This document shows positions 12,540 through 29,513 of a DNA stretch of 35,665 bases, in pieces (position 1 is the first letter of the stretch; every line of letters begins with the position of its first letter). A model generated the notes under the pieces. It made no database searches, was not told the DNA's origin, and saw nothing but the letters and a program-made list of their open reading frames with translations. This stretch comes from a virus, in the IMG/VR virus record IMGVR_UViG_3300007363_000053, positions 1 to 35,665 of that record. The stretch is one strand, 5' to 3'. The position numbers and the translations under genes are program-made.

Positions 12540-13925
12540 TTAACTTCCAAAGAACATTGCTGTTGCATATGAAGGAGAAACAGCTGAAAAACCAGATGAT
12601 CCAGCATTATATAATGCTTGTAAATTAAATGTTGTGGTTGATCTAGACGGATTTAAAGTTGAATCTTCAACTAATACTACATATGCAACAGTTCCTACGT
12701 TTCTAATTCCACTTCCTAAAAAAGCATAATTTGTATTAGCAAAAGCATTTGTAAAAGTTATTTGAAATCGTCCTGTGCTTAAATAAGTCATCGAAGAAAC
12801 ATTGTAACTATTATAAATAAATAAATTTATGGCGATGTTGCCTGAAGTTGTTAAAGAAGTTCCAGCTGTATATGTAAATGAATTTGATGTCGCAGTCGCT
12901 ACTGTATAAAATCCTGTAACAGCTGTTCCGCTTGAAATTGTTACATAAAACTTTGTTCCTGCAACCATTCCGTGACCAGTAATTGAAACCGTTACTGTTG
13001 TTCCAGATTGTGTATATGTTCCAGTAGCATTTGGCGTAGTTTGAGCATTAAAATTAACCCAAGCTTTTGCAATGTTTGCTTGCACGGTTGCATCTAGCTT
13101 TGCAGTTGTAACGTTCGCATCTGTTATAGCTGTGGTTGTTACTGAGTTAGCAGCTAATTGTGTGGATGTAATACCGCCTGATTTAACGATAATTTGATTG
13201 CTACTTGCCGCAGTTGTTGAGTTATCAACTAATGCAGAAGCCGCTACAGCAATTGTGTTTGAGCTGTTAACAAGCGTTGAGTTATCAAGCTTGATGTTGC
13301 TTGCGATGTTTCCAGACGTATCCATTGTCAAAAAGTTGTTTGATACGGCAGGAATAGTTGGAAGTGTAATTGTGTAATTTAAAGCAAGTGAACTAGGTGG
13401 CGCTAAAGTTAATCCATAAGAACTAACTGTGATGTTTCTTAAAATAACAGAGCCGCAATCCAAGTTAGCCGCAGTATTTGCAGCCGATTGCCAAACAAAT
13501 GTTTGATTTGCAGGAACGTAGGTCGCACTTGCAGGACTAACAAGTCCACCAATTGAGCCAGTTGTTCCGACAATTGATCCGCTTTGAGTTATACGAATTT
13601 TATTTCCGCTACCGTCATTATAATAAAGATCGCCGCCTGTTCCTGAGGAATAAGCACAGTTTAAATCCGCTACACCTGACAAAGTAGATGTTTGATTTTG
13701 AAAACGTGTACTTCGAACAAGTGTCAGATTATTTCCAGCAAAAGATAGATCGGCATTAATATCGATGCCGCTTGGATTAATTTGCACACCACTACCAGTC
13801 GCGTGAGTATGCGAATCAATTAAAGCCATACAGTTATTAATTTGCGTTGCCCAATCTGGCCCTGGATCAACCCCTACCACTGGTACTGGTAGATTCATAT
13901 TTGGACTAATTGTTGTTGTAGGCAT
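12540..13925 (-). CDS. tail fibre-like protein
   Basis: The 461-residue protein is rich in Thr, Ser, Asn and Ala. It starts with a conserved particle-binding type N terminus (MNLPVPVVGVDPGPDWATQI, then a SHTHATGSG turn). The middle has repeated beta segments such as TTAITDANVTTAKLDATVQA, a pattern typical of trimeric phage fibres. The C terminus is aromatic-poor and ends in ATAMFFGS. No chaperone or depolymerase domain was seen. It sits between the small 98-residue protein and the nozzle-like gene and is distinct from the three paralogous fibre genes at 23162-28077. Confidence 0.72.
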   Translation of the reverse strand: MPTTTISPNMNLPVPVVGVDPGPDWATQINNCMALIDSHTHATGSGVQINPSGIDINADLSFAGNNLTLVRSTRFQNQTSTLSGVADLNCAYSSGTGGDLYYNDGSGNKIRITQSGSIVGTTGSIGGLVSPASATYVPANQTFVWQSAANTAANLDCGSVILRNITVSSYGLTLAPPSSLALNYTITLPTIPAVSNNFLTMDTSGNIASNIKLDNSTLVNSSNTIAVAASALVDNSTTAASSNQIIVKSGGITSTQLAANSVTTTAITDANVTTAKLDATVQANIAKAWVNFNAQTTPNATGTYTQSGTTVTVSITGHGMVAGTKFYVTISSGTAVTGFYTVATATSNSFTYTAGTSLTTSGNIAINLFIYNSYNVSSMTYLSTGRFQITFTNAFANTNYAFLGSGIRNVGTVAYVVLVEDSTLNPSRSTTTFNLQALYNAGSSGFSAVSPSYATAMFFGS

Positions 13926-16199: not shown

Positions 16200-16802
16200 C
16201 TATTTGATTTCTAACAAGTAACTTTCGGCTTTAGCAAGTAAATTGGGATTATCTAAAATAGCTATTGATGTATTGCACCGATAACACAACAAACCTCTAA
16301 CTTTACCCGTTTTGTGACAATGATCTATTGCTAACGGTCTTTTACCTTTTGGTTTTTCACCACAAATTTTACAGCAATTGTTTTGCTCAATAAGCATTTT
16401 TTGATGTTCTTCGGGAGTAATTTTATAACGTTGTAACCTTAGTTTATGGTAATGCTTAGCGTTGTATTTATCTGTTCTATTTTTTACTTTAATACTATTA
16501 CTTCTTCGATATTTTAAAGTTGTTTTATCTCTGCAATTTTTACAAATTGTAGCGCGACCATCGCTAATACCTGAATCTTTATAAAATTCAGTTGCAGGTT
16601 TTGTTTCGTTGCATCTATTACAGGTTTTATTTTGAATGTTTTTTATATTCAAACCTGCTCGACGATCATCTCGGTCTTTTTGTTTTTTAATCTTTCGACA
16701 ATTTGAACAAATTCCCTGCAATCCATCTTTATTACGAGAATCTTTTTCAAAATAAATTGTAGCTTTATTTTCTTTGCATTTATTACAGGTTTTTGTGTTC
16801 AT
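16200..16802 (-). CDS. endonuclease VII-type HNH endonuclease, free-standing
   Basis: The 200-residue protein has two N-terminal zinc modules (Cys6/9/32/35 and Cys61/64/87/90). A C-terminal endonuclease VII-like HNH domain (T4 gp49 family) follows: CCKICG at 143-148, IDHCHKTGKVRGLLCYRCN at 159-177. Asp160 and His161 are the likely active-site residues, Cys144/147/173/176 the zinc ligands, and Asn177 the conserved last residue. Such genes are usually homing endonucleases in phages. It lies immediately after the major capsid gene and its terminator, with its own promoter at 16809-16838, and it separates two structural genes. It is related in domain order to the intron-borne enzyme at 18442. Confidence 0.9.
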   Translation of the reverse strand: MNTKTCNKCKENKATIYFEKDSRNKDGLQGICSNCRKIKKQKDRDDRRAGLNIKNIQNKTCNRCNETKPATEFYKDSGISDGRATICKNCRDKTTLKYRRSNSIKVKNRTDKYNAKHYHKLRLQRYKITPEEHQKMLIEQNNCCKICGEKPKGKRPLAIDHCHKTGKVRGLLCYRCNTSIAILDNPNLLAKAESYLLEIK

Positions 16803-16907: not shown

Positions 16908-18033
16908 TTATTGTGATAAACTTACGACACAATTCCATCCTGGCGCGGAACAGATTAAGTTCCCGTAATAGCCGATACGAACTTCCAATGCGTCTGCGTT
17001 TCCAACACGGATACCTTCCAAACCTTCAAGACCGTAGGTCAAGATGTGAGGAGCTTTTCCAAGTGAACGGAATTTCCATGTATCCATAGAAAGCAAGTAC
17101 GCTACTTGAGCAGGACAGTTTCTATCAGGGATAACGGTAATAGGTCCGTATGCAGCGTGGATGGTAATACCAGCCCAGCCAATTTCACATTCATCGTGCT
17201 TCACTTGTACGTATTGTACCTTGGATCCCAAGGCTTTTACGAGTGCAGCGTATGATGCAAAGTTAGTAAAGCACATATCGGGTTGGCCGCCTTCGCGAGC
17301 TACAAGAGCAGCAGCGTCGATGAGGGCTTCTTCGATTGTTTCGCTTGATCCGTCAAAACGAACACCACCCAAACGAGTAGGATCTACTGAACGGTCAACG
17401 TTCCAGAAAGAATCTCCAGATGAAGGAGCACTTAAAGGAAGCCAAGCTGCGAGACCAGATACAGCCAAGTAGCTGCCTGTTCCAGAAGCTCCTGAAGCTC
17501 CAATATCTCCGTTAACATAGAGGTAACTGTTTGCTGCCCAGTTAGCAGAGAGTGAACTTGCAAGAGTTGTAGAAGATACGCCAGTGAGCACGCCAGTTGA
17601 GCGGTTAACCGCAGTCAATTGAACAGTGTCGCTAGAAGGTGAGCTTCCGTCAGTCGCAGAAACAACGAGCAACATTCCAACTTCGAATTGCACTACTTGC
17701 GCAGAGTTAATCAAAGTGATGGTAGTAGCTGTTGAACTTCCAGACTTAGTGATACTTCCGATTTGACCGCGTGAGCCAGTTCCAGAAGCAAACAAGTTTT
17801 GAGCCAAGTTGTTAGAAATGTTTCTAAAACCTGTGTCCAAGTTTAACTTAGCCTGGTCGATGAAGGCTCCAGCGTTATCTTTTGTTGCCTCGAGCAATTC
17901 ATTCGTTATTGTTACGAGTTGATAGTCACTGATGCGGTATACGAAAAACGCAACGTCTGCGGGTGCAGTTTGTTGGTTTTGCGCATTTGCAAAAGTGTGT
18001 GATCGTCCTTGGCCTGTGCCATAGATGATGGGT
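16908..18033 (-). CDS. major capsid protein, exon 3 (main exon)
   Basis: This exon encodes most of an HK97-like major capsid protein. Upstream of the first in-frame alternative start (TTG17897), the frame stays open and conserved back to A18033. It reads PIIYGTGQGRSHTFANAQ, then DVAFFVYRISDYQLVTITNE, continuous with LLEATKDNAGAF. This is the N-arm/E-loop pattern of this capsid family. The C terminus, LEVRIGYYGNLICSAPGWN, is also typical. The exon starts after a G at 18034 that ends an intron; a TGA in the intron closes the frame further upstream. Calling the gene from TTG17897 would remove about 45 conserved residues. Joined to exons 2 and 1 it gives 431 codons including stop. Confidence 0.92.
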
Positions 18034-18411: not shown

Positions 18412-19037
18412 CAATTTGTTATCCCAAAGGCTTTTTATCCCTTAGTTCTTAAACTTCTTTAAGTAATCAATTGCCATTTGTAAGCGCTTTATTGAATCTT
18501 GGAAGTATCCAATTCCAGGATTGCATTGTGTACATAACAACCCTCGAATTTTTCCAGTTTCATGTTCATGATCTACATGAAGTTTTCTTTTAAATTTTTC
18601 TTCGTGTTGACCACAACAAGCACAATTTCCATTTTGTGCTTCATAAAGTCTTTCATAATCAGACAATCTAATTCTGTAATTTTTCCATAAGTCATATTCA
18701 AAGTTTGCTTTAGACTTACAATCAAAACAAAAAGGTCGAGTATAAACCTTGTCCTTTTTGTTAAAAGTTGGAAACTCTTTAATGCTTTTTTCTAAATTAC
18801 AAAATTTACATTTTTTTTGTTTAAGTTCAGCGTACATTTTCATCTCGTTAAGATGTCGGGCACTCATGCTTATATTATATTCTAAATAATTGTTTAGATT
18901 ATTAAGTTTCAATAAGTACGCGTTACGGTGACTAAAGTTTTTACACTTATAGTTTACCTCGGTATTAGCGATCTCAGCCTTCACCGATTTTGCCCGATTA
19001 TTCATTAATGAGTTACCCCATTAAGCGGCAATGATTT
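18412..19037 (-). ncRNA. group I-like intron 1 in the capsid gene (carries HNH ORF)
   Basis: The 626-nt insertion begins after the exon sequence ACACCGGT and contains GCCG 8 nt in, matching the CGGU of the exon with a U-G at the splice site. It ends ATTG before GAC of exon 2. Its 5' part and the last 45 nt are homologous to intron 2. The stem CTTAAAC/GTTTAAG (18825-18819, 18454-18448) corresponds to CTTAGAC/GTCTAAG in intron 2 with a compensated base pair. The endonuclease ORF fills that stem's loop. No group I core was drawn base by base. Confidence 0.82.
18442..19005 (-). CDS. intron-encoded endonuclease VII-type HNH homing endonuclease
   Basis: The longest frame is 187 residues. Residues 1-46 coincide with the intron's 5' core and look non-protein-like, so initiation at Met47 (18867), Met55 (18843) or Met57 (18837) is more plausible. 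The protein has a zinc module (Cys66/69/93/96). An endonuclease VII-type HNH domain follows: CACCG near 128-132, VDHEHETGKIRGLLCTQCN at 144-162, with Asp145/His146 as likely active-site residues and Cys158/161 as ligands. It resembles the free-standing enzyme at 16200. As an intron-borne nuclease it should cut intron-less capsid genes and promote intron homing. Confidence 0.9.
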   Translation of the reverse strand: MNNRAKSVKAEIANTEVNYKCKNFSHRNAYLLKLNNLNNYLEYNISMSARHLNEMKMYAELKQKKCKFCNLEKSIKEFPTFNKKDKVYTRPFCFDCKSKANFEYDLWKNYRIRLSDYERLYEAQNGNCACCGQHEEKFKRKLHVDHEHETGKIRGLLCTQCNPGIGYFQDSIKRLQMAIDYLKKFKN

Positions 19038-20085: not shown

Positions 20086-21996
20086 TTATCCAACTGGCAC
20101 GTTTGAAAGCAGGTCACTTGTCGGACGTGCTAATGGAACACCTTGAACGGGCGCTGCTCCTGTTTGATCTGGCATCATAAGAGGTGGCGGCGGCATAGCT
20201 GCTTGCTTTAGTGTTTGAATTTGTGTGAAAAAATCTCTTAGCTTTTGAGCTTTAGATTCTTCCAAATTAGCAGCAATGTATAAATTATAATACTGAGTTA
20301 CTAGCTTTTCAGCGAGCAACAAATCCATAAATGGATCAGGCGGAGTGTATTTACCGTCTTCTACAATTTCATCTAAGATTTTTAGAATTCTTTCTTCACT
20401 TGCATTGGCAAGCTTATCGACTTGCTCGATGTCAGGGAAGTCTAAAAGACGGCGACCTTCCTCAGGTGATACAAGGCCTGATTGCATCATCTCGGTAACT
20501 TTTTGTAATCGTCCCGCTGGCTCTTTAGGCAAGCTAGATGTGTCGTAGCATTGAATTACAAAAGGATCGTTAAGTTGTTTAACGTTAGGTAAATCAATCT
20601 CTTTAGTACCATCTTTGTTTGGATAGATTGTTTGATAGCTACCTTCTCGCTCAGCAATATCTTTAGCCATATCACAAAACTTTAAAGCAAGGTCTTCGTA
20701 AACATTTGTGTAGCGCTTTTGAAGTGTAGCGAAACGATCTGACTGTAAATCATCGTAGCTTCTTATTGCTTCACCTGAATTTAGACCCGCAGGCTTTTGA
20801 GCAGTAGCCGCAAGAGCACTTATGCCTGATTGTTGATAAGCAAACTGAATCAAGCGCTCTAATTGCGCATACATTTCTTGTGGAATACATGGGGCGACTT
20901 CGTAAATAGGCTTAGTTCCTGAATATGGGACAATAGCTCCAATGTTATTGTTCAATGTCGCTTTACCAACTTTTGATCCAGCTTCAACAAACACACGAGG
21001 CACGCCAACAAGATTAATGGATCGGCTAATAGTGATAAGCATTTCATTGATCTGAGATTGGGTTCCCATGAGCTGTTCGGCAAGCCCTTGTCCCCAAAAT
21101 CCTAATGGTCGTGGTGAATAATGAAAGAAGGCAAAAGGAAAGTAGTCTTTTGTATAAGGTTCATCTAAGATTTTACCCGCAGAACAAACAATAACGTGAC
21201 GACCATCATCTGCGTTCTTTGAGCTAGGTAAATGCCAAGCCTCAACGATAATAATTTGGTCACTAATCGTGCGAGCACCGTCAATGTTTTGCTCTGGAAT
21301 AGCTTGCTCAGCCAATGCGATGTCGCTTCTGTATTTAGGGAAAAGCTCTTGAAGAACCGATCTATCAACAAGCTTAAGTTCAAACATTTGAGTTGGCTTG
21401 CCGTAATAAGCATCGTTTGGATCAACAAAAATTTCAGTTAATAGCTTTCTCTCAAGTGCCAGTTTGTGATCGTCTGTTTCATAAATCTTTAAACAGCCTG
21501 TACCAAATACAGCTCCGTCTCGAAGCATAAGCTCACCTAAATCATAAGCTTTTGTTTGATAAAGCTCGCCATGAATAAAGTTATTCATCTGTTTAGCTAA
21601 ACGTCTTTGTTTATAATCACCATTATCAGTTAAAAATAAAGGCTTTGGTTTTGCCTGCGCAATACGAGATACCAAAGTATCAATACAGCTTTGAACAACG
21701 TTCATTGTTGGGCGATCAACTGGCAAGTTTTGATTGCCGCTTGCGATACGTCCAAGGTTAGACCCTGCGAAGTTATAAAGCGGTTGATTGCCATAAAGCT
21801 TTGCAAAGATACCAGCTTGTGTGAATCGATATTGTTGTTGAGTCTTTAAAAAAGTTGCGCTCTCAAGAACTTGGTTACGAAGGTCGTCATTTGTACGAGC
21901 TAACCACCATTTCCAAGCACGAGGATCATCTTTTTTGCTTTGTTTTGTCTTTGCGTAAATTACGTCTTCACTGTCTTTGCGTGTGATTTTAGGCAT
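20086..21996 (-). CDS. portal protein
   Basis: The 636-residue protein has the layout of podovirus-type portals. An N-terminal region around WKWWLARTNDDLRNQVLESA leads into the clip/wing, and 'RPTMNVVQSCIDTLVSRIAQ' near 95-115 is followed by GELMLRDGAVFGTGCLKIYE. A central block reads SPRPLGFWGQGLAEQLMGTQ with SQINEMLITISRS. SGEAIRSYDDLQSDRFATLQ lies near 410-430, and the C-terminal half is helical. It forms the dodecameric channel for DNA packaging at one vertex. Its start overlaps the TAA of the 81-residue gene (TAATG), and it lies between that gene and the scaffold. Confidence 0.9.
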   Translation of the reverse strand: MPKITRKDSEDVIYAKTKQSKKDDPRAWKWWLARTNDDLRNQVLESATFLKTQQQYRFTQAGIFAKLYGNQPLYNFAGSNLGRIASGNQNLPVDRPTMNVVQSCIDTLVSRIAQAKPKPLFLTDNGDYKQRRLAKQMNNFIHGELYQTKAYDLGELMLRDGAVFGTGCLKIYETDDHKLALERKLLTEIFVDPNDAYYGKPTQMFELKLVDRSVLQELFPKYRSDIALAEQAIPEQNIDGARTISDQIIIVEAWHLPSSKNADDGRHVIVCSAGKILDEPYTKDYFPFAFFHYSPRPLGFWGQGLAEQLMGTQSQINEMLITISRSINLVGVPRVFVEAGSKVGKATLNNNIGAIVPYSGTKPIYEVAPCIPQEMYAQLERLIQFAYQQSGISALAATAQKPAGLNSGEAIRSYDDLQSDRFATLQKRYTNVYEDLALKFCDMAKDIAEREGSYQTIYPNKDGTKEIDLPNVKQLNDPFVIQCYDTSSLPKEPAGRLQKVTEMMQSGLVSPEEGRRLLDFPDIEQVDKLANASEERILKILDEIVEDGKYTPPDPFMDLLLAEKLVTQYYNLYIAANLEESKAQKLRDFFTQIQTLKQAAMPPPPLMMPDQTGAAPVQGVPLARPTSDLLSNVPVG

Positions 21997-22262: not shown

Positions 22263-22874
22263 TTATTCCATTCCGAGATGTTTTTTGCGAATTTTCTTCA
22301 TAATTCCATCAATCATCCCGCCTTGAGCGTATTTCTTTTTAGGTTGAACACCTTCAAACTCGCCATCTAATTCATCAGACAAATAAGATTCATGGCAATC
22401 TTGCATACCGATTGGATCATATCCTTGTCCGTATTTAATTGGATTGCCTATTTCAGCGCCACCCACATGATCGTGCTCGGCATATTCCATTTCAGGCGAT
22501 TCCATTTCTTCGTGCTCAGCACTTCCCTCCAGTACTTCACCACCTTCGGCATATCCCTTTTTCTTTGAAATATGCGCCACAATCGCATCAGCAATAGAAC
22601 GAACGGAACTGGGAACTCCCATGTGTGAGGCCATTAGTTTAGGATTGTACTGTCCACCTTCTGCCATTTCTTGAACGTAGGTAGGAGCACCATGATGCTC
22701 AATGCCCGCAGGCTCAACGGCGTCTTTAATCATGCCACCTTTAGCTTTTTTCTGAGCTTTACGTTTTACTGAATAAGCAATAGCAAGAGCTTGTTTTTGA
22801 GGTTTTCCTGATTCCATTTCTGTACTCACATTCTTTGAAAATGATTTTTCTGATTTACCTTGAATTAGTGGCAT
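22263..22874 (-). CDS. conserved phage protein with MPLI-GKS N terminus
   Basis: The 203-residue protein starts with a motif that I recognise from many phages: MPLIQGKSEKSFSKNVSTEM, then E-SGKPQKQALAIAYSVKRK. The rest is acidic and Gly/His-rich with GG-turn repeats (KGGMIKDAVEP, AEGGQYNPK, AEGGEVLEG, AQGGMIDGIM). The repeat phase suggests beta turns or collagen-like segments with metal-binding potential. It lies in the head operon between the 87-residue gene (overlapping as TAATG) and the small pre-portal gene. Function unknown. Confidence 0.7.
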   Translation of the reverse strand: MPLIQGKSEKSFSKNVSTEMESGKPQKQALAIAYSVKRKAQKKAKGGMIKDAVEPAGIEHHGAPTYVQEMAEGGQYNPKLMASHMGVPSSVRSIADAIVAHISKKKGYAEGGEVLEGSAEHEEMESPEMEYAEHDHVGGAEIGNPIKYGQGYDPIGMQDCHESYLSDELDGEFEGVQPKKKYAQGGMIDGIMKKIRKKHLGME

Positions 22875-23137
22875 TAGATTTCTTCCTCACCTGATGAGTA
22901 TTCTTCCATTTCTTTTTGCATAAACTCGCCCATAGCAGCTTGTAGAGCCATTGCGACTGCTTTTGCATCCTTGCTATGAACGGCGTCAATTAATTCTTGA
23001 GCAACGTCTTCAAGACCGTAGTCTTCTGCTTTTTCTTCCTCAACTTGTCCGCCATCATCATAGCGTTGAGTTCCATCAGCTTTGCGTAAATTAATCATTG
23101 CTGAACCAATTTTCTTTTGATCAATGAAAGGAAGCAT
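22874..23137 (-). CDS. conserved small head-operon protein
   Basis: The 87-residue protein begins MLPFIDQKKIGSAMINLRKA, a motif that I recognise from phages with the same gene order, and continues with a helical acidic part (LIDAVHSKDAKAVAMALQAA). Its stop overlaps the next ATG as TAATG. It is probably a minor head or assembly protein; no activity is suggested by the sequence. Confidence 0.68.
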   Translation of the reverse strand: MLPFIDQKKIGSAMINLRKADGTQRYDDGGQVEEEKAEDYGLEDVAQELIDAVHSKDAKAVAMALQAAMGEFMQKEMEEYSSGEEEI

Positions 23138-23161: not shown

Positions 23162-24790
23162 TTATAATGTAACTTGTAAAGTTGTACCAGCCGTGCCCGC
23201 TGTACCTGTTGAAGTTGTTGGAGTTGTAGCAGCCGATGGTAATGTGGTTGTTGCAGAACTTTCTGTAATTACGCCCGTGGACATATTTATTAAAGTCACG
23301 CGTCCTCCGGCTCCACCTTGGCCTCCCTGACCTCCCCGTCCTGTACCAGTCCCGTTTCCACCTGTACCTCCTGTCCCGCCTGAGGCATCTATCATATTAG
23401 TAGCAGCGTTACCTTGAAGTGAATTGTAAAATATAATTACCCAGCCGCCTCCTGCACCACCAGCACCACCGCCTCCACCTGAATTTCCACCTGCCGAGTT
23501 TGCTCCAGCACCGCCTGTATTTCCTTTGGATTGTATTGCACCTGTAGCAGTAGTCGTGTCTCGTTTTAAAATGTTGCAATAAATTGCGATGACGTTACCA
23601 CCTGTGGCTCCTGATCCGCCTGCACCACCGTTATTTGTTCCATCTCCGTTTGCCCCACCTCCTGCAGCGCCTGACCCTCCTCCGCTATATAAAGTGGTTT
23701 GACGGAGCAAATTAAAATCAAAACGATGTAATGGAATTATATTAGCATTTGTAGCTGTAGCGCCACCCGCTGCACCTGCGGCTAATGCTGGAGCGCCACC
23801 ACTACCTCCGGCTCCGCCTTGGCCTCCTAAACTTTGTTGTCCAAAACTTGAGTTACCGCCCGCTGTACCTGCACCTGTTCCTGAATTTCCACCAATAACA
23901 GAAGAAGCATTAGCACCAACAGTATTTGCAGTGGCAACCGAAACAAGAGCACCGCCTGATGCGCCTGTTCCTGCGTTTCCAGCCGTTCCGTTTCTTGCAA
24001 TAGCTGCGGCAGGTGCATTACTTAAATCTAAAGTGCCTGCAACAAATATGCGATAACCACCGTTGTTTAATGAACCAGTGCCCGAAATAGTTAAATTATT
24101 AACGTAATAATCATCGGCTAACGTTGTAGTTCCTGAACTAATTGTGACATCTCCTAACTGACCAAGGCCATAAAAAGGCGGCAACGTGTTTCCACCTTGA
24201 GCAATGTTTAAATTACCACTTGTTAATTTAGCAGCACTTAAGCTTGGAATATCCGCAGCTACAAGTGAGCGAAGTGATAAAGTTCCTGTTACTCCATCGG
24301 GTGTGGCAAGAACTTGGTTAGCGGTTTGTCCACCGTTAGCAGCAATCGCAATTGTTCCTGCTGTTGTTACGGGGTTATTTGAAACAGATAAAAATGATGG
24401 GACTGACACATCAACGCTAGTAATGTTACCTGCACCCTTATTGTTGAACGTATTCCAATCAGTGGATGAAATATATCCATCCATGGAGCTTGATGCTTGG
24501 TTGATACTTAAGTTACCAGAGGTAAAAACTAATGGGCTTGATGCTGTAACGGCTGCTTGAGCGCGAGCATTGGTAAAAAATAAATTACCTGATTCAGTAA
24601 TCAGATCAGTATTGTAATCGCCACTAACGGCAACGACTGCGCCAATTCTTCCAAAAACAGAAGAAACAGCACCGCCGCCGCCACCTGCAACCCAAGTAAA
24701 ATCATAATTGTTATCACTAGCTTTTCCAAGGATTTGTCCAGTAGTGCCGCCTGCGGGAATTCCAAGAGGTTTATTTGTTGAAATACTCAT
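23162..24790 (-). CDS. glycine-rich fibre protein, paralogue A
   Basis: The 542-residue protein starts MSISTNKPLGIPAGGTTGQI and continues with SVFGRIGAVVAVSGDYNTDL and LFFTNARAQAAV, repeated in each paralogue. Residues about 275-495 are dominated by G-G-x-G-G repeats (GGAGGSGGAP, GGGGGAGGAGGG) that resemble the polyglycine-II layers known from some T-even tail-fibre tip adhesins. The C terminus is Thr/Ala/Ser-rich. Such domains bind host receptors through variable loops. It is the most distal of three tandem copies, 12 bp from the second. Confidence 0.72.
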   Translation of the reverse strand: MSISTNKPLGIPAGGTTGQILGKASDNNYDFTWVAGGGGGAVSSVFGRIGAVVAVSGDYNTDLITESGNLFFTNARAQAAVTASSPLVFTSGNLSINQASSSMDGYISSTDWNTFNNKGAGNITSVDVSVPSFLSVSNNPVTTAGTIAIAANGGQTANQVLATPDGVTGTLSLRSLVAADIPSLSAAKLTSGNLNIAQGGNTLPPFYGLGQLGDVTISSGTTTLADDYYVNNLTISGTGSLNNGGYRIFVAGTLDLSNAPAAAIARNGTAGNAGTGASGGALVSVATANTVGANASSVIGGNSGTGAGTAGGNSSFGQQSLGGQGGAGGSGGAPALAAGAAGGATATNANIIPLHRFDFNLLRQTTLYSGGGSGAAGGGANGDGTNNGGAGGSGATGGNVIAIYCNILKRDTTTATGAIQSKGNTGGAGANSAGGNSGGGGGAGGAGGGWVIIFYNSLQGNAATNMIDASGGTGGTGGNGTGTGRGGQGGQGGAGGRVTLINMSTGVITESSATTTLPSAATTPTTSTGTAGTAGTTLQVTL

Positions 24791-24801
24791 TTAATAATTC
24801 C

Positions 24802-26439
24802 TTATAAGTTTACTCGTGAAATAGCGCCTGCGGTGCCATTTGTTCCAGCTGTTGAACTTGGAACTGTAGGAGTTGCGCCTAAAGTATTTGTAGCATCGGT
24901 TTCAGAAATTGTGCCCGATGAGACGTTAAATAACAAAACTCTGCCCGCTGAAGCGCCTTGGCCTCCACCTCCACCTCGATAAACAACTCCATTACCGCCA
25001 TTACCCCCAGCCCCACCTGACACGTCAATGCAATTTGTTGCAGTTGATCCAGATAAGCTTGCATAATAAATAATAACGCATCCACCACCCGCACCTGCTC
25101 CACCTCCTCCTCCACCTGCGTTTGTAGCAGCCGTAGAACTAGAACCGTTTCCACCATTGCCTCCTATGGCAGCAATAGCACCCACAGCGGTTGATGAGCC
25201 GCGAGTTATTGTGTTGGCAAATATGCAAATTATTCCTGAGCCCGCTCCACCACCGCCGCCAGCGCCAGAAGTATTTCCAGTTGTGCCCGTACCCGACGAA
25301 CCTCCAAAACCACATAAACCTCCTGAAAAAAGCGTAGCGCCTTTTAAAATTTGATGATCTACACGATAAAATGAGTTTTGTGATCTTGTAACTCCTGCTC
25401 TACCGGAAATTTGCGAAGCGTTTGCTCCACCTGAACCAGTGGATGCGCTACTGCCACCCAAACACGCTGTGTTTGTTGTAGAAGTTGAAGCTGCAGTACC
25501 TGTTCCCGTTGTTCCATTTGCTCCAGCGGTTGCAGTTCCTAACGTGCCTCCTACGCTTCCCGCAGCTAAAACAGTTCCAGCACTACCGCCTGTCGCGCCA
25601 CTTGCGTCCCCGCCATTATTTATAGTTAATGAAATTGCGTTCGCAGGTGCGTTTGTTAAATCCAAAGTGCCTGATACAAAAATTTTAAATCCGTTGGGAT
25701 CAAGTCGTGCAGTGCCACTTATAGTAACTGAGCTATAAAATTGATCGCGTGAAAGCGTGGTTGTACCAGAGCTGATATTTAGTGCCCCGTCACTTCCGTC
25801 TCCAAAAAACCCAAGAGGACAACCTCCAAGCGCAGGAGACAAAACACCTGTTGTAATTTTTGCAGCACTGATATTTGGTATGTCGTTAGCAACTAATGAT
25901 CTAACTGACACAACACCTGTTGTTGAATCAGGTGTGGCAAGAATTTGGTTAGCAGTTAAGCCACTAGCTGAAGTAATTGCGAAAGTTCCTGCTCCAGTTG
26001 TGATGGGTGTTCCAGTGACAGCCAAGAACGATGGGACTGTCATTGCGATATTTGTAACTGTTCCACTTCCTTTAGAGTTAAATGTTGTCCAATCAGTTGC
26101 GGACAAATAACCACTGACTGACGTTGTGGCTTTTGGAATTGTTATATTTCCACTTGAATATGCAAGCGGAGAAGAGACACTAAGAGCTGCTTGAGCACGA
26201 GCATTTGTGAAATATAAATTTGTTGAGCCTTCTGTGATTTGAGCGGATGTATAATCGCCAAGTGTTGCAACAACGGCATTGATTCTACCAAAGACAGAAA
26301 AAACACTACCGCCTCCACCGCCGCCGCCGCCGCCTGTTACCCATTGAACGTCGTAATTATCATTAGAAGCTTTTACGAGAACTTGGCCAGCCAAGCCGCC
26401 TTTAATAATACCTTGAGCTTTATTGGTTGAATAACTCAT
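24802..26439 (-). CDS. glycine-rich fibre protein, paralogue B
   Basis: The 545-residue protein has the same N terminus as paralogue A (MSYSTNKAQGIIKGGLAGQV, SVFGRINAVVATLGDYTSAQ, LYFTNARAQAAL), a shared middle (SATDWTTFNSKGSG, TVPSFLAVTG) and a Gly-rich C-terminal half. Divergence is greatest in the Gly-rich part, where receptor contacts are expected. The gene lies 13 bp after paralogue C. The antisense strand has long Pro/Ala-rich open frames caused by the Gly codons; these are not genes. Confidence 0.72.
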   Translation of the reverse strand: MSYSTNKAQGIIKGGLAGQVLVKASNDNYDVQWVTGGGGGGGGGSVFSVFGRINAVVATLGDYTSAQITEGSTNLYFTNARAQAALSVSSPLAYSSGNITIPKATTSVSGYLSATDWTTFNSKGSGTVTNIAMTVPSFLAVTGTPITTGAGTFAITSASGLTANQILATPDSTTGVVSVRSLVANDIPNISAAKITTGVLSPALGGCPLGFFGDGSDGALNISSGTTTLSRDQFYSSVTISGTARLDPNGFKIFVSGTLDLTNAPANAISLTINNGGDASGATGGSAGTVLAAGSVGGTLGTATAGANGTTGTGTAASTSTTNTACLGGSSASTGSGGANASQISGRAGVTRSQNSFYRVDHQILKGATLFSGGLCGFGGSSGTGTTGNTSGAGGGGGAGSGIICIFANTITRGSSTAVGAIAAIGGNGGNGSSSTAATNAGGGGGGAGAGGGCVIIYYASLSGSTATNCIDVSGGAGGNGGNGVVYRGGGGGQGASAGRVLLFNVSSGTISETDATNTLGATPTVPSSTAGTNGTAGAISRVNL

Positions 26440-26451
26440 CTATTTTTTTCC

Positions 26452-28077
26452 TTATAAAGAAGCTTGTGTTGTAACGCCCGCAGTGCCAGAAGTTCCCGCT
26501 GTTCCAGTTGGTGCAGTTGGGGTGCTTGCTGAAGTTCCAGTGCCGTCGGTTTCTGTTACAACTCCAGTTGAGGCGTTGATAAGAATAATTCTGCCGCCAT
26601 TGCCGCCCTGACCTCCCGTTCCTCCATAATAGCCAGCCGTGCCTGTACCGCCGTTTCCACCTGTGCCGCCCGATGCGCGGAATATATTTGTGCCAGTTGA
26701 GCCTTGAAGAGAGTTGTAAACAAAATAAATACAACCGCCACCTCCACCGCCTCCACCGCCGCCACCGCCGCCGCCTGATGCATTACCTCCGTTGCCCCCA
26801 GCTTTACCATCCGTGAAAATAGCATTTGCTGCCGTTGTATTATCGCGTTTAAAAATGTTGCAATAAATTGACATAATACCGCCAGCTTGCGCACCACCAC
26901 CGCCGCCGCCGCCTGTTGACGTTCCATTTCCGTTTCCAGAGCTTCCGCCTGTACCGCCAAACCCGCCTGCTAATTGTGCAGCACCTCGAAGTAAATTTAC
27001 TTCAACATACGCAACACGATTAAACGATCCTGTCGTTGCGGTTTGTCCTGCAACACCCACAGCGCCTAAAGCGCCCCCTGCTCCCGCTGTTCCTGCAACA
27101 CCGCCCATGGCTGTGGCAACCGTTGCAATGGCCGCAGGCGCAGTGCCCGTTCCAGTTGTAGCTGTTGTACCTGCATTTGGTGACGTTGCTGTAATAAGTC
27201 CAGAAGCGGCGCCAGCACCTCCACCTGTTGCGCCTGAAGTATTTCCACCACTACCGGCGGTACCATTTTTAGAGATTGCATTAGCAATTGCTCCAGTCAT
27301 ATCTAAAGTGCCTGCAACAAAAATGCGAAAAATTAGCGTTTGTATTACATTCCCAGATCCAGAAATAGTGAGATTATTGTAGTACATATCTCTAGAAAGC
27401 ACCACGGAACCACTTATCGTAACATTGCCATCTGATCCGTCTCCGTAGAACGGAACACCACACCCACCTTGAGCGGGTGAAAGAAACCCACTTGTGATTT
27501 TAGAAGCATCTAAATTTGGAATGTCGTTTGAAACCAATGCTCGAAGCGACATAGCACCCGTTGCTGAATCAGGTGTTGCCATGACATAATTCGCTGTTTG
27601 TCCACTCGTTGCAGTAATCGCAAGAGTTCCAGTAGTTGTAACTGCACCACTCACTGTTAACCAAGAAGGAACAGTTAACGCCACACTTGTGACAGTTCCA
27701 CTGCCTTTGTTATTGAACGTATTCCAGTCTGTGGATGATAAGTAACCACTTGTTGACGTGTTAGCTAAACTGATTGAATAAGTGCCCGCTGAATAGCTTA
27801 TAGGAGCTGTAAATGAGAACGCAGCTTGTGCACGAGCATTAGTGAAATAAAGATTTGTTGCTCCAACAAGTTCTGTGACTTGATCGGATGTGTAATCCCC
27901 AGTTTGAGCGTGAATGTCTCCAGTTCGACCAAAGACAGATGAAACAGCTCCACCACCGCCACCGCCTGATCCACTTCCCCAAGCTATATCAAAATCATTA
28001 TTTGAAAGTTTTACAATTGCCTGTCCAGTTAAGCCGCCAGACGGAACTCCAAGTGGTCTATTCGTTGAAAATGACAT
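26452..28077 (-). CDS. glycine-rich fibre protein, paralogue C
   Basis: The 541-residue protein repeats the plan of A and B: MSFSTNRPLGVPSGGLTGQA, SVFGRTGDIHAQTGDYTSDQ, LYFTNARAQAAF, then STDWNTFNNKGSGTVTSVAL and a Gly-rich half with runs of up to about 12 consecutive Gly residues (around residue 445). The end of the family pattern is TAGTSGTAGVTTQASL. It is the first of the three in transcription order, just after the terminase large subunit. Unlike classic fibres, these genes lie at the head end of the operon. Confidence 0.72.
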   Translation of the reverse strand: MSFSTNRPLGVPSGGLTGQAIVKLSNNDFDIAWGSGSGGGGGGAVSSVFGRTGDIHAQTGDYTSDQVTELVGATNLYFTNARAQAAFSFTAPISYSAGTYSISLANTSTSGYLSSTDWNTFNNKGSGTVTSVALTVPSWLTVSGAVTTTGTLAITATSGQTANYVMATPDSATGAMSLRALVSNDIPNLDASKITSGFLSPAQGGCGVPFYGDGSDGNVTISGSVVLSRDMYYNNLTISGSGNVIQTLIFRIFVAGTLDMTGAIANAISKNGTAGSGGNTSGATGGGAGAASGLITATSPNAGTTATTGTGTAPAAIATVATAMGGVAGTAGAGGALGAVGVAGQTATTGSFNRVAYVEVNLLRGAAQLAGGFGGTGGSSGNGNGTSTGGGGGGGAQAGGIMSIYCNIFKRDNTTAANAIFTDGKAGGNGGNASGGGGGGGGGGGGGGCIYFVYNSLQGSTGTNIFRASGGTGGNGGTGTAGYYGGTGGQGGNGGRIILINASTGVVTETDGTGTSASTPTAPTGTAGTSGTAGVTTQASL

Positions 28078-28094
28078 CTACTAATGTACAGGTG

Positions 28095-29513
28095 TCAGAT
28101 CATCCCACCTTGTTCTTCTAGATTCTCAAAATGCTCAATAGCCGCTTGTTCCATGCTTGCAACCTCTTGCTCAGCCCATTCACGTGATCCCCAAGCGTGT
28201 TTAATCATCGGAGCTTCTGTAATTGGTGGTCTAGTCATTAGCGCGTACCTGATCATATCGAACGGGTCGTCACCTGAGTAAACATCGCCTTCTTTAGCGT
28301 CTACTTTAAGCACGTCTTCAACTCTATTGGGGTCATGTTGCATTCTGGTTAAGCAATCAAACGTGATCGGACACGTATTAAAGATATAAAATCTTGGTTT
28401 ATTAATGCCATTGGATTTGTTTTGCCATGCTAAGTACGAGCGAACTTGAGCAGCACCTTGTATTCGATCAATGTTCGCACGTTTTAAATGTATAAGATGC
28501 TTTGCAAACTCTTCTGCAATTGTAGGCGGCGTGGATTCATTGAGCACTCCCTTTTTCGCCCAACAATCATGACCAGCCACAATCGGATAAAGGTTCTCAG
28601 TATCAGGATAGCTTTTAAGTATCTTGCAAAATTGATCTACACGAAGCTGAGGCTTTATAAGCTCTCGATACATATAAACGTTGCCGTCTTCATCGACAGC
28701 GAACCATCCAAAAGCTGCGGGGTGATTATAACCAAAGTCGTATGCTCCAAAGCGAGTCCAATGATGAGGAATATTAAATGGCTTTATTAAATGCACGCTT
28801 CGATTGATTTCAGTAAAGAACTGACCTGCAAATATATCCCAATCGCCGTACAAGAATGCGCGTCTTAAAGCCTCATTAGGTTCTGTTTTAAGTCTGTGAA
28901 CGTAGTCAGGGTCATTTTCTAAAAGAGCAGCGTTATCTTGAACGAATGCCTGAATGAATTTGTAGTCCTCTGGGCGTTCTTCTTCTTTAAATTTACGCTC
29001 AACAAAGATTCTTTTAAGCCAAGCGTGACCCACACCTCCTGGGTTACCAGTTAGAATAGCTCTGGGCTTAATACCTTGTTTAGATGAACGATTGGAGCCA
29101 AGTAGTGTGCGAAACATAGTCTCTGGCCACTGACCTGCCTCATCGATAGCTAGATCATGAAACTCACGACCTTGATAAAGTGAGATGTCAGCTTCGTTAT
29201 TGCAATGACAAAACTGGAGTGTGGAACCGTTAGGTAAAGTAATTAGCTTTTTTGATTCGTTATAAAACTCGCGCAGAAACGGATACTCCTGAAACAAAGG
29301 CCTAATATGATTGCCTTCAAGCTCTGGATAAGTTCTGCGAAAAATAGCACCATTGCTGCCAGCGTATACAAGCCTGCGTAACAGCATAATGCGACGAAGA
29401 CCTGCGCTTTTGCCACCACCGCGTGCACCACCGAAAAACACCACAGGCGTCTTTTCAACAGCGTGCAAGAATTCCTTTTGTTTCGGTTGAAGCGATATTC
29501 TGACATCAATCAT
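28095..29513 (-). CDS. terL: terminase large subunit
   Basis: The 472-residue protein has Walker A GGARGGGKS (28-36), Walker B LAIDEA (121-126) with catalytic Glu125, and the coupling motif ILTGNPGG (153-160). The RNase H-like nuclease domain starts at GAYDFGYNHPAAFGW with Asp259, and a late GDDPFDMIRYAL carries the terminal Asp pair. It is the DNA-packaging motor that cuts concatemers and translocates DNA into the head with the portal at 20086. ATG29513 overlaps the small subunit's stop (ATGA). Confidence 0.96.
   Translation of the reverse strand: MIDVRISLQPKQKEFLHAVEKTPVVFFGGARGGGKSAGLRRIMLLRRLVYAGSNGAIFRRTYPELEGNHIRPLFQEYPFLREFYNESKKLITLPNGSTLQFCHCNNEADISLYQGREFHDLAIDEAGQWPETMFRTLLGSNRSSKQGIKPRAILTGNPGGVGHAWLKRIFVERKFKEEERPEDYKFIQAFVQDNAALLENDPDYVHRLKTEPNEALRRAFLYGDWDIFAGQFFTEINRSVHLIKPFNIPHHWTRFGAYDFGYNHPAAFGWFAVDEDGNVYMYRELIKPQLRVDQFCKILKSYPDTENLYPIVAGHDCWAKKGVLNESTPPTIAEEFAKHLIHLKRANIDRIQGAAQVRSYLAWQNKSNGINKPRFYIFNTCPITFDCLTRMQHDPNRVEDVLKVDAKEGDVYSGDDPFDMIRYALMTRPPITEAPMIKHAWGSREWAEQEVASMEQAAIEHFENLEEQGGMI

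Follow-up and report, generated by a model that had tools for sequence, protein, structure and literature searches.

The closest described parallel to the protein module analysed here is the gp38 tip of the T-even-like phages S16 and PP01 (PDB 9v85); PP01 gp38 is described as a beta-helix with a lattice of poly-glycine-II and with receptor loops that vary (PMC12892980). Proteins of the Bordetella phage tropism determinant type, which carry the Mtd_N domain, offer a second comparison. Several adhesins can be present on one virion, each with its own target: in phage CBA120 (PMC8825819) these are the spikes TSP1-4, which assemble into a branched complex whose baseplate anchor is known. Capsid fibres and decorations (phi29 gp8.5, SPP1 gp12, T4 Hoc, phage 7-7-1) are encoded near head genes and have been proposed to bind cells or surfaces loosely (PMC7602432, PMC12796354).

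We analysed the DNA of an uncultured phage, 35,665 nucleotides long, the whole of IMG/VR record IMGVR_UViG_3300007363_000053, hereafter called the window. Between its terminase and portal genes lie three tandem genes, F1, F2 and F3, whose products would resemble gp38 in combining a beta-helix with a glycine-rich region, protruding variable loops and GGX repeats. Whereas gp38 is a stand-alone tip protein attached to gp37, the module of F1-F3 is fused C-terminally and occurs in three genes. Paralogues of this C-terminal module (C-module) carry Mtd_N, in tandem, at three other viral loci (L185, L188 and L204); F1-F3 themselves gave no Pfam match to it. Unlike the CBA120 spikes, F1-F3 revealed no anchor. 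They are likened to capsid fibres and decorations by gene position and proposed role, not by sequence or fold.

A triplet of paralogues and its conservation

The features of the window referred to below are the following.

28095-29513, minus strand: terminase large subunit, upstream neighbour of the triplet (PHROGs and Pfam)
26452-28077, minus strand: F1, copy nearest the terminase, 541 aa; ATG ORF with a shaft-like N half and the C-module from about residue 205
26455-27465, minus strand: C-module of F1 (residues 205-541), for which a beta-solenoid bearing glycine-rich arms is predicted; about residues 290-375 make up the variable segment
24802-26439, minus strand: F2, middle copy, 545 aa; ATG ORF
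24805-25824, minus strand: C-module of F2
23162-24790, minus strand: F3, copy nearest the portal genes, 542 aa; ATG ORF
23165-24178, minus strand: C-module of F3
22263-23137, minus strand: two small genes after F3 (22874-23137 and 22263-22874), kept in many relatives
20086-21996, minus strand: portal protein (PHROGs)
12540-13925, minus strand: candidate ordinary tail fibre, in the tail module and outside the array (phrog_11355 tail fiber protein, over 43 residues only)

The three copies are 52-54% identical to one another in amino acids over their full length, and their mutual similarity in a search of the window's own record (E ~1e-130) excludes chance; no fourth copy was present in this whole record. 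A sequence-only reading of this DNA had described three tandem paralogues of about 540 codons between the terminase and the head genes, far from the other tail genes. Its coordinates are exact, the triplet lies about 9 kb from the tail-module fibre gene, and the two motifs that it quoted, SVFGR..GDY and FTNARAQAA, are common to the three copies, as is TDW.TFN. F1 is separated from the end of the terminase gene by 17 nt, the intergenic gaps are 11-17 nt long, and AGGA-type ribosome sites are present on F2 and F3. After F3 come three small genes and then the portal gene, beginning about 1.2 kb downstream. The triplet is therefore not placed in the tail module, which is the usual, if not obligatory, location for receptor-binding fibres.

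F1, F2 and F3 had no match in Pfam, PHROGs or NCBIfam. Glycine accounts for 13% of the N half and 27-32% of the C half. The N half is made of shaft modules common to more than 400 viral stretches, and its N-terminus showed no recognised anchor domain. A shared N-terminal anchor was considered and rejected: within the collected set, the first 36 residues match one other protein only, and this match lies within its shaft.

A scan with the terminase identified two phages at 90-92% terminase identity, L084 (contig 3300042691_026724) and L085 (contig 3300035681_000076). Both carry three genes of about 540-546 aa in identical order between the terminase and the same small genes.

F1 orthologues: L084 11437-13068; L085 11437-13059
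F2 orthologues: L084 13081-14721; L085 13072-14712
F3 orthologues: L084 14733-16358; L085 14726-16351

Across the three phages, proteins at the same position are 67-74% (F1), 62-79% (F2) and 74-78% (F3) identical, F3 being the most conserved copy between the window and the relatives (74-75%), and unlike copies are 48-54% identical in every comparison. In a tree of 85 C-modules, the nine triplet proteins formed one clade (support 96/90) in which each copy position had its own clade (100/99 or better). These positional clades, together with an identity that is higher between orthologues than between paralogues, indicate that the triplication predates the split of the three carriers. The dN/dS ratios (Nei-Gojobori) were 0.13-0.27 for F1-F3 and 0.04-0.06 for the terminase, values that are rough for F1-F3 given a dS of 1.2-1.7, near saturation; the dN of F1-F3 was 2.6 to 4.9 times that of the terminase. 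The triplet is long established and encodes three distinct proteins, on which purifying selection acts. The fibre gene of the tail module is 72-73% identical in the two near relatives. No cultured relative was found among phage records for F1, for the start of the C-module or for the capsid protein. Nor did the analysis turn up a relative whose structure has been solved or whose function has been tested. At another place in the window, a tRNA-Asn (1049-1124) adjoins an ORF (351-1058) that reads like a DNA cytosine methyltransferase, and this region (351-1124) has no counterpart in the compared parts of L084 and L085.

Predicted fold and distribution of the C-module

AlphaFold2 models were obtained for nine sequences. 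Much of the F1 C-module was modelled with a pLDDT of 70-87 and the solenoid strands reached about 70-92; the F3 C-module alone gave a mean pLDDT of 69.9 and a pTM of 0.76, with the variable segment below 50. The C-module is thus predicted to consist of a beta-solenoid core with glycine-rich arms. Because the N half (pLDDT ~25-37) gave no usable model, we infer rather than model the fibre and trimer form.

Among viral models, one match was a protein from an uncultured phage (TM 0.73 on the query). The C-module model also matched 'collagen-like' proteins of the giant viruses Orpheovirus and Pandoravirus (BFVD A0A2I2L380, A0A2I2L5F3, S4VX73) with a Foldseek probability of 1.00 and a TM of 0.41-0.47 on the query. 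Foldseek against the PDB returned nothing usable for F1. When the F1 model was compared with six solved chains, the IcsA autochaperone scored Z 5.2 and the receptor-binding domain of PP01 gp38 Z 3.9 (rmsd 3.7 over 130 residues, a weak match found at a second look), both of them scores that chance similarity often reaches. The same comparison with the F3 C-domain model gave no match, so that the likeness to gp38 was obtained for F1 only, and a profile search against PDB sequences (E up to 1), which low complexity limits, did not return gp38.

Gly-Gly pairs at lag 3 were enriched in nine of nine proteins from the three phages (z 3.1-5.6). This GGX periodicity was discarded as a proof of poly-glycine-II, 80 other glycine-rich ORFs being its equal (mean 3.77 vs 3.91); the sequences of the glycine-rich runs are compatible with poly-glycine-II packing.

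To follow the module in other viruses, its glycine-poor start (DGSDGDVTI...RDMYYNNLT...RIFVAGTLD) was used as a query, and 180 viral loci were found, of which 79 were taken for inspection. The C-module, about 335 aa long in F1-F3, has a median length of 338 aa in relatives (5-95% range 253-381); in most of them it reaches the end of the protein and is preceded by N parts of about 10 to 1100 residues. It is unmatched in Pfam, PHROGs and NCBIfam. Matches of a whole-C-domain profile to L065, L093, L062 and others were set aside as mostly local and low-complexity. Tandem arrays of C-modules are common, with four copies in L185, three in L254 and two in L188, L189, L197, L202, L203, L204, L206 and L215. 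The fusion to Mtd_N in L185, L188 and L204 scores above the Pfam cut-off, and the fused protein of L185 is classified by PHROGs as 'tail fiber protein'. First and second copies of this Mtd_N group fall into two groups with moderate support (89/89 and 88/72), so this tandem set likewise dates far back, with an origin separate from that of the window's triplet. Judged from these sequences, arrays of two to four C-modules have more than one origin.

The genes that carry the module occupy various positions. L185 has, one after another, the terminase, the portal, another fibre-like gene, four C-module genes and the major head protein; a pair of C-module genes (L204) or a single one (L181) is found between portal and major head protein. 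In L209 the module ends a protein of 899 aa with minor-tail and tail-fibre PHROG matches, encoded after Baseplate_J and Tail_P2_I genes and before the sheath and tube genes, which is the usual place of a P2-like tail fibre. From these four contexts, the fusion partners are fibre-like while the gene position varies. A protein of 1660 aa in L258 also ends with the C-module. An inverted pair of tip genes in L258/L259 was examined as an invertible fibre cassette and rejected, since it is a perfect palindrome of 8129 nt without spacer; this palindrome (L258 514-16771, on a Rhodospirillales MAG contig) is most likely an assembly artefact.

Probable adhesins on the tail, the neck or the head

We consider it probable (about 60%) that F1, F2 and F3 are adhesins of the virion, expressed together and retained as a fixed set of three distinct proteins. 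This reading is favoured because of positional orthology, purifying selection and the occurrence of the tip module elsewhere on tail-fibre and Mtd_N proteins. With an N-terminal shaft, a portable and mostly C-terminal module and a variable segment, F1-F3 are also modular like a receptor-binding tail fibre. Each protein would be a fibre: shaft modules that are common in phage fibres would build its N half, and its last ~335 residues would be the binding tip, made of the beta-solenoid core and GGX glycine-rich arms; the variable loop segment would contact the cell surface. One acquired gene would have been triplicated before the three known carriers split, the copies would since have been retained as three distinct, non-interchangeable proteins, and the particle probably gains three binding specificities beyond the ordinary tail fibre. 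Three receptor-binding proteins on one virion had been one of two proposals of the sequence-only reading and it is the better supported, by orthology, purifying selection and the tip-module fusions; we infer that the proteins reside in the virion as trimeric fibres and bind cells, each copy with a specificity of its own. A point against an adhesin role is the other candidate tail fibre of this phage, which the tail module encodes. The three-adhesin reading is compatible with attachment to the capsid as well as to the tail or neck.

The interval between terminase and portal was compared among relatives collected by a capsid-protein scan (72 related loci). Counting contigs with both terminase and portal, and merging loci of the same contig, the triplet was present in two contigs and the window, a pair of small genes of about 110 aa (smA/smB) in 16, and neither in 16. 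In these other relatives smA/smB sit between the two small genes that follow F3 in the window (for example L091 11761-12416 and L094 5756-6852), and they show weak matches, below cut-off, to BclA_C and to phrog_486 'head and packaging'/'virion structural protein'. Single smA/smB-like genes are found right after the capsid gene in L130 and L135. An smA with a long glycine-rich insertion was seen in L092, L094, L095, L098 and L099. One exact insertion point for smA/smB and the triplet was rejected, the two positions being one gene apart with smA/smB further on. It is suggestive only that the interval tends to hold extra, probably surface-exposed proteins. As regards the major capsid gene of the window (16908-17897), it is flanked by two endonuclease VII-like ORFs (16200-16802 and 18442-19005), and in L084/L123 and several relatives (L161, L163-L167) the gene for this protein is broken up into two or more ORFs, as if hit by mobile insertions.

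That F1-F3 are head fibres or capsid decorations providing loose and reversible binding, with host range set by the tail fibre 12540-13925, is possible but unlikely. Such a role would agree with the placement of the triplet in the packaging and head region, some 9 kb away from the tail module, with the smA/smB genes of the same interval in 16 related contigs and their counterparts after the capsid gene in L130 and L135, with the C-module arrays of L185 and L204, which are flanked by the portal and capsid genes, and with the existence of capsid fibres that bind host structures (PMC12796354, PMC7602432). However, the site of attachment does not follow from gene position, the tip module is also found at a P2-like tail-fibre position and on Mtd_N anchors, and smA/smB lie one gene off the insertion point of the triplet, with family matches below cut-off. 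A broader proposal, which we regard as quite doubtful, is that of a widespread and unnamed adhesin module which phages have repeatedly multiplied, within the head-gene cluster, into lasting arrays of two to four specialised copies, shown together as mixed capsid or neck fibres beside an ordinary tail fibre. There is little probability that F1-F3 act outside the virion, for instance secreted from the infected cell or placed on its surface, or serve as structural filler: this would fit proteins that no family model matches, but the genes lie within the late structural gene run and the module is repeatedly fused to fibre parts.

Divergence between copies and between genomes

The C-terminal half had been expected to diverge most. 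Between the window and the relatives, this holds for F1 and F2 (C half 56-61% identity, N half 72-80%) and fails for F3 (74-77% and 72-74%, respectively), where the C half is not more divergent. Nor does the variability reside in the polyglycine-like sequence itself: over 85 C-modules, the poly-glycine runs are conserved and the variability lies between them, with an entropy peak at about residues 290-375 of F1 and a maximum at 351-365. A variable tip had been anticipated; a variable segment is present, but it lies between the glycine runs.

Exchange between the copies was assessed by comparing the nucleotide identity of unlike copies within and between genomes. Within genomes it was 0.559 (F1-F2), 0.560 (F1-F3) and 0.550 (F2-F3), and between genomes 0.556, 0.560 and 0.549, respectively; the mean excess of within-genome identity over 959 sliding windows was 0.001 (sd 0.05). 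In some short windows a paralogue was closer than the orthologue, and such excesses were scattered evenly around zero. The longest identical run between paralogues was 12-23 nt. As unlike copies are equally identical within and between genomes, neither gene conversion nor recent shuffling is evident, in a test that rests on three genomes and that rare swaps could escape. The other proposal of the sequence-only reading, an array serving as a reservoir of tip variants whose recombination would switch host range, is very improbable and the least probable of the readings considered: the copies are tandem paralogues with a shared N half, the C halves of F1 and F2 are more variable and F1-F3 change faster between phages than their neighbours, but all three pairs lack a within-genome excess, identical runs are short and positional orthology is complete in the three genomes.

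If F1-F3 are indeed three co-displayed adhesins, a common tip domain, unnamed in the three family libraries searched, would mark adhesins in many uncultured phages. Several paralogous adhesins could then persist as a fixed set and not as a recombination pool, and the triplet would offer a straightforward case in which to ask whether fibres whose genes lie in the head region are carried on the head or on the tail.
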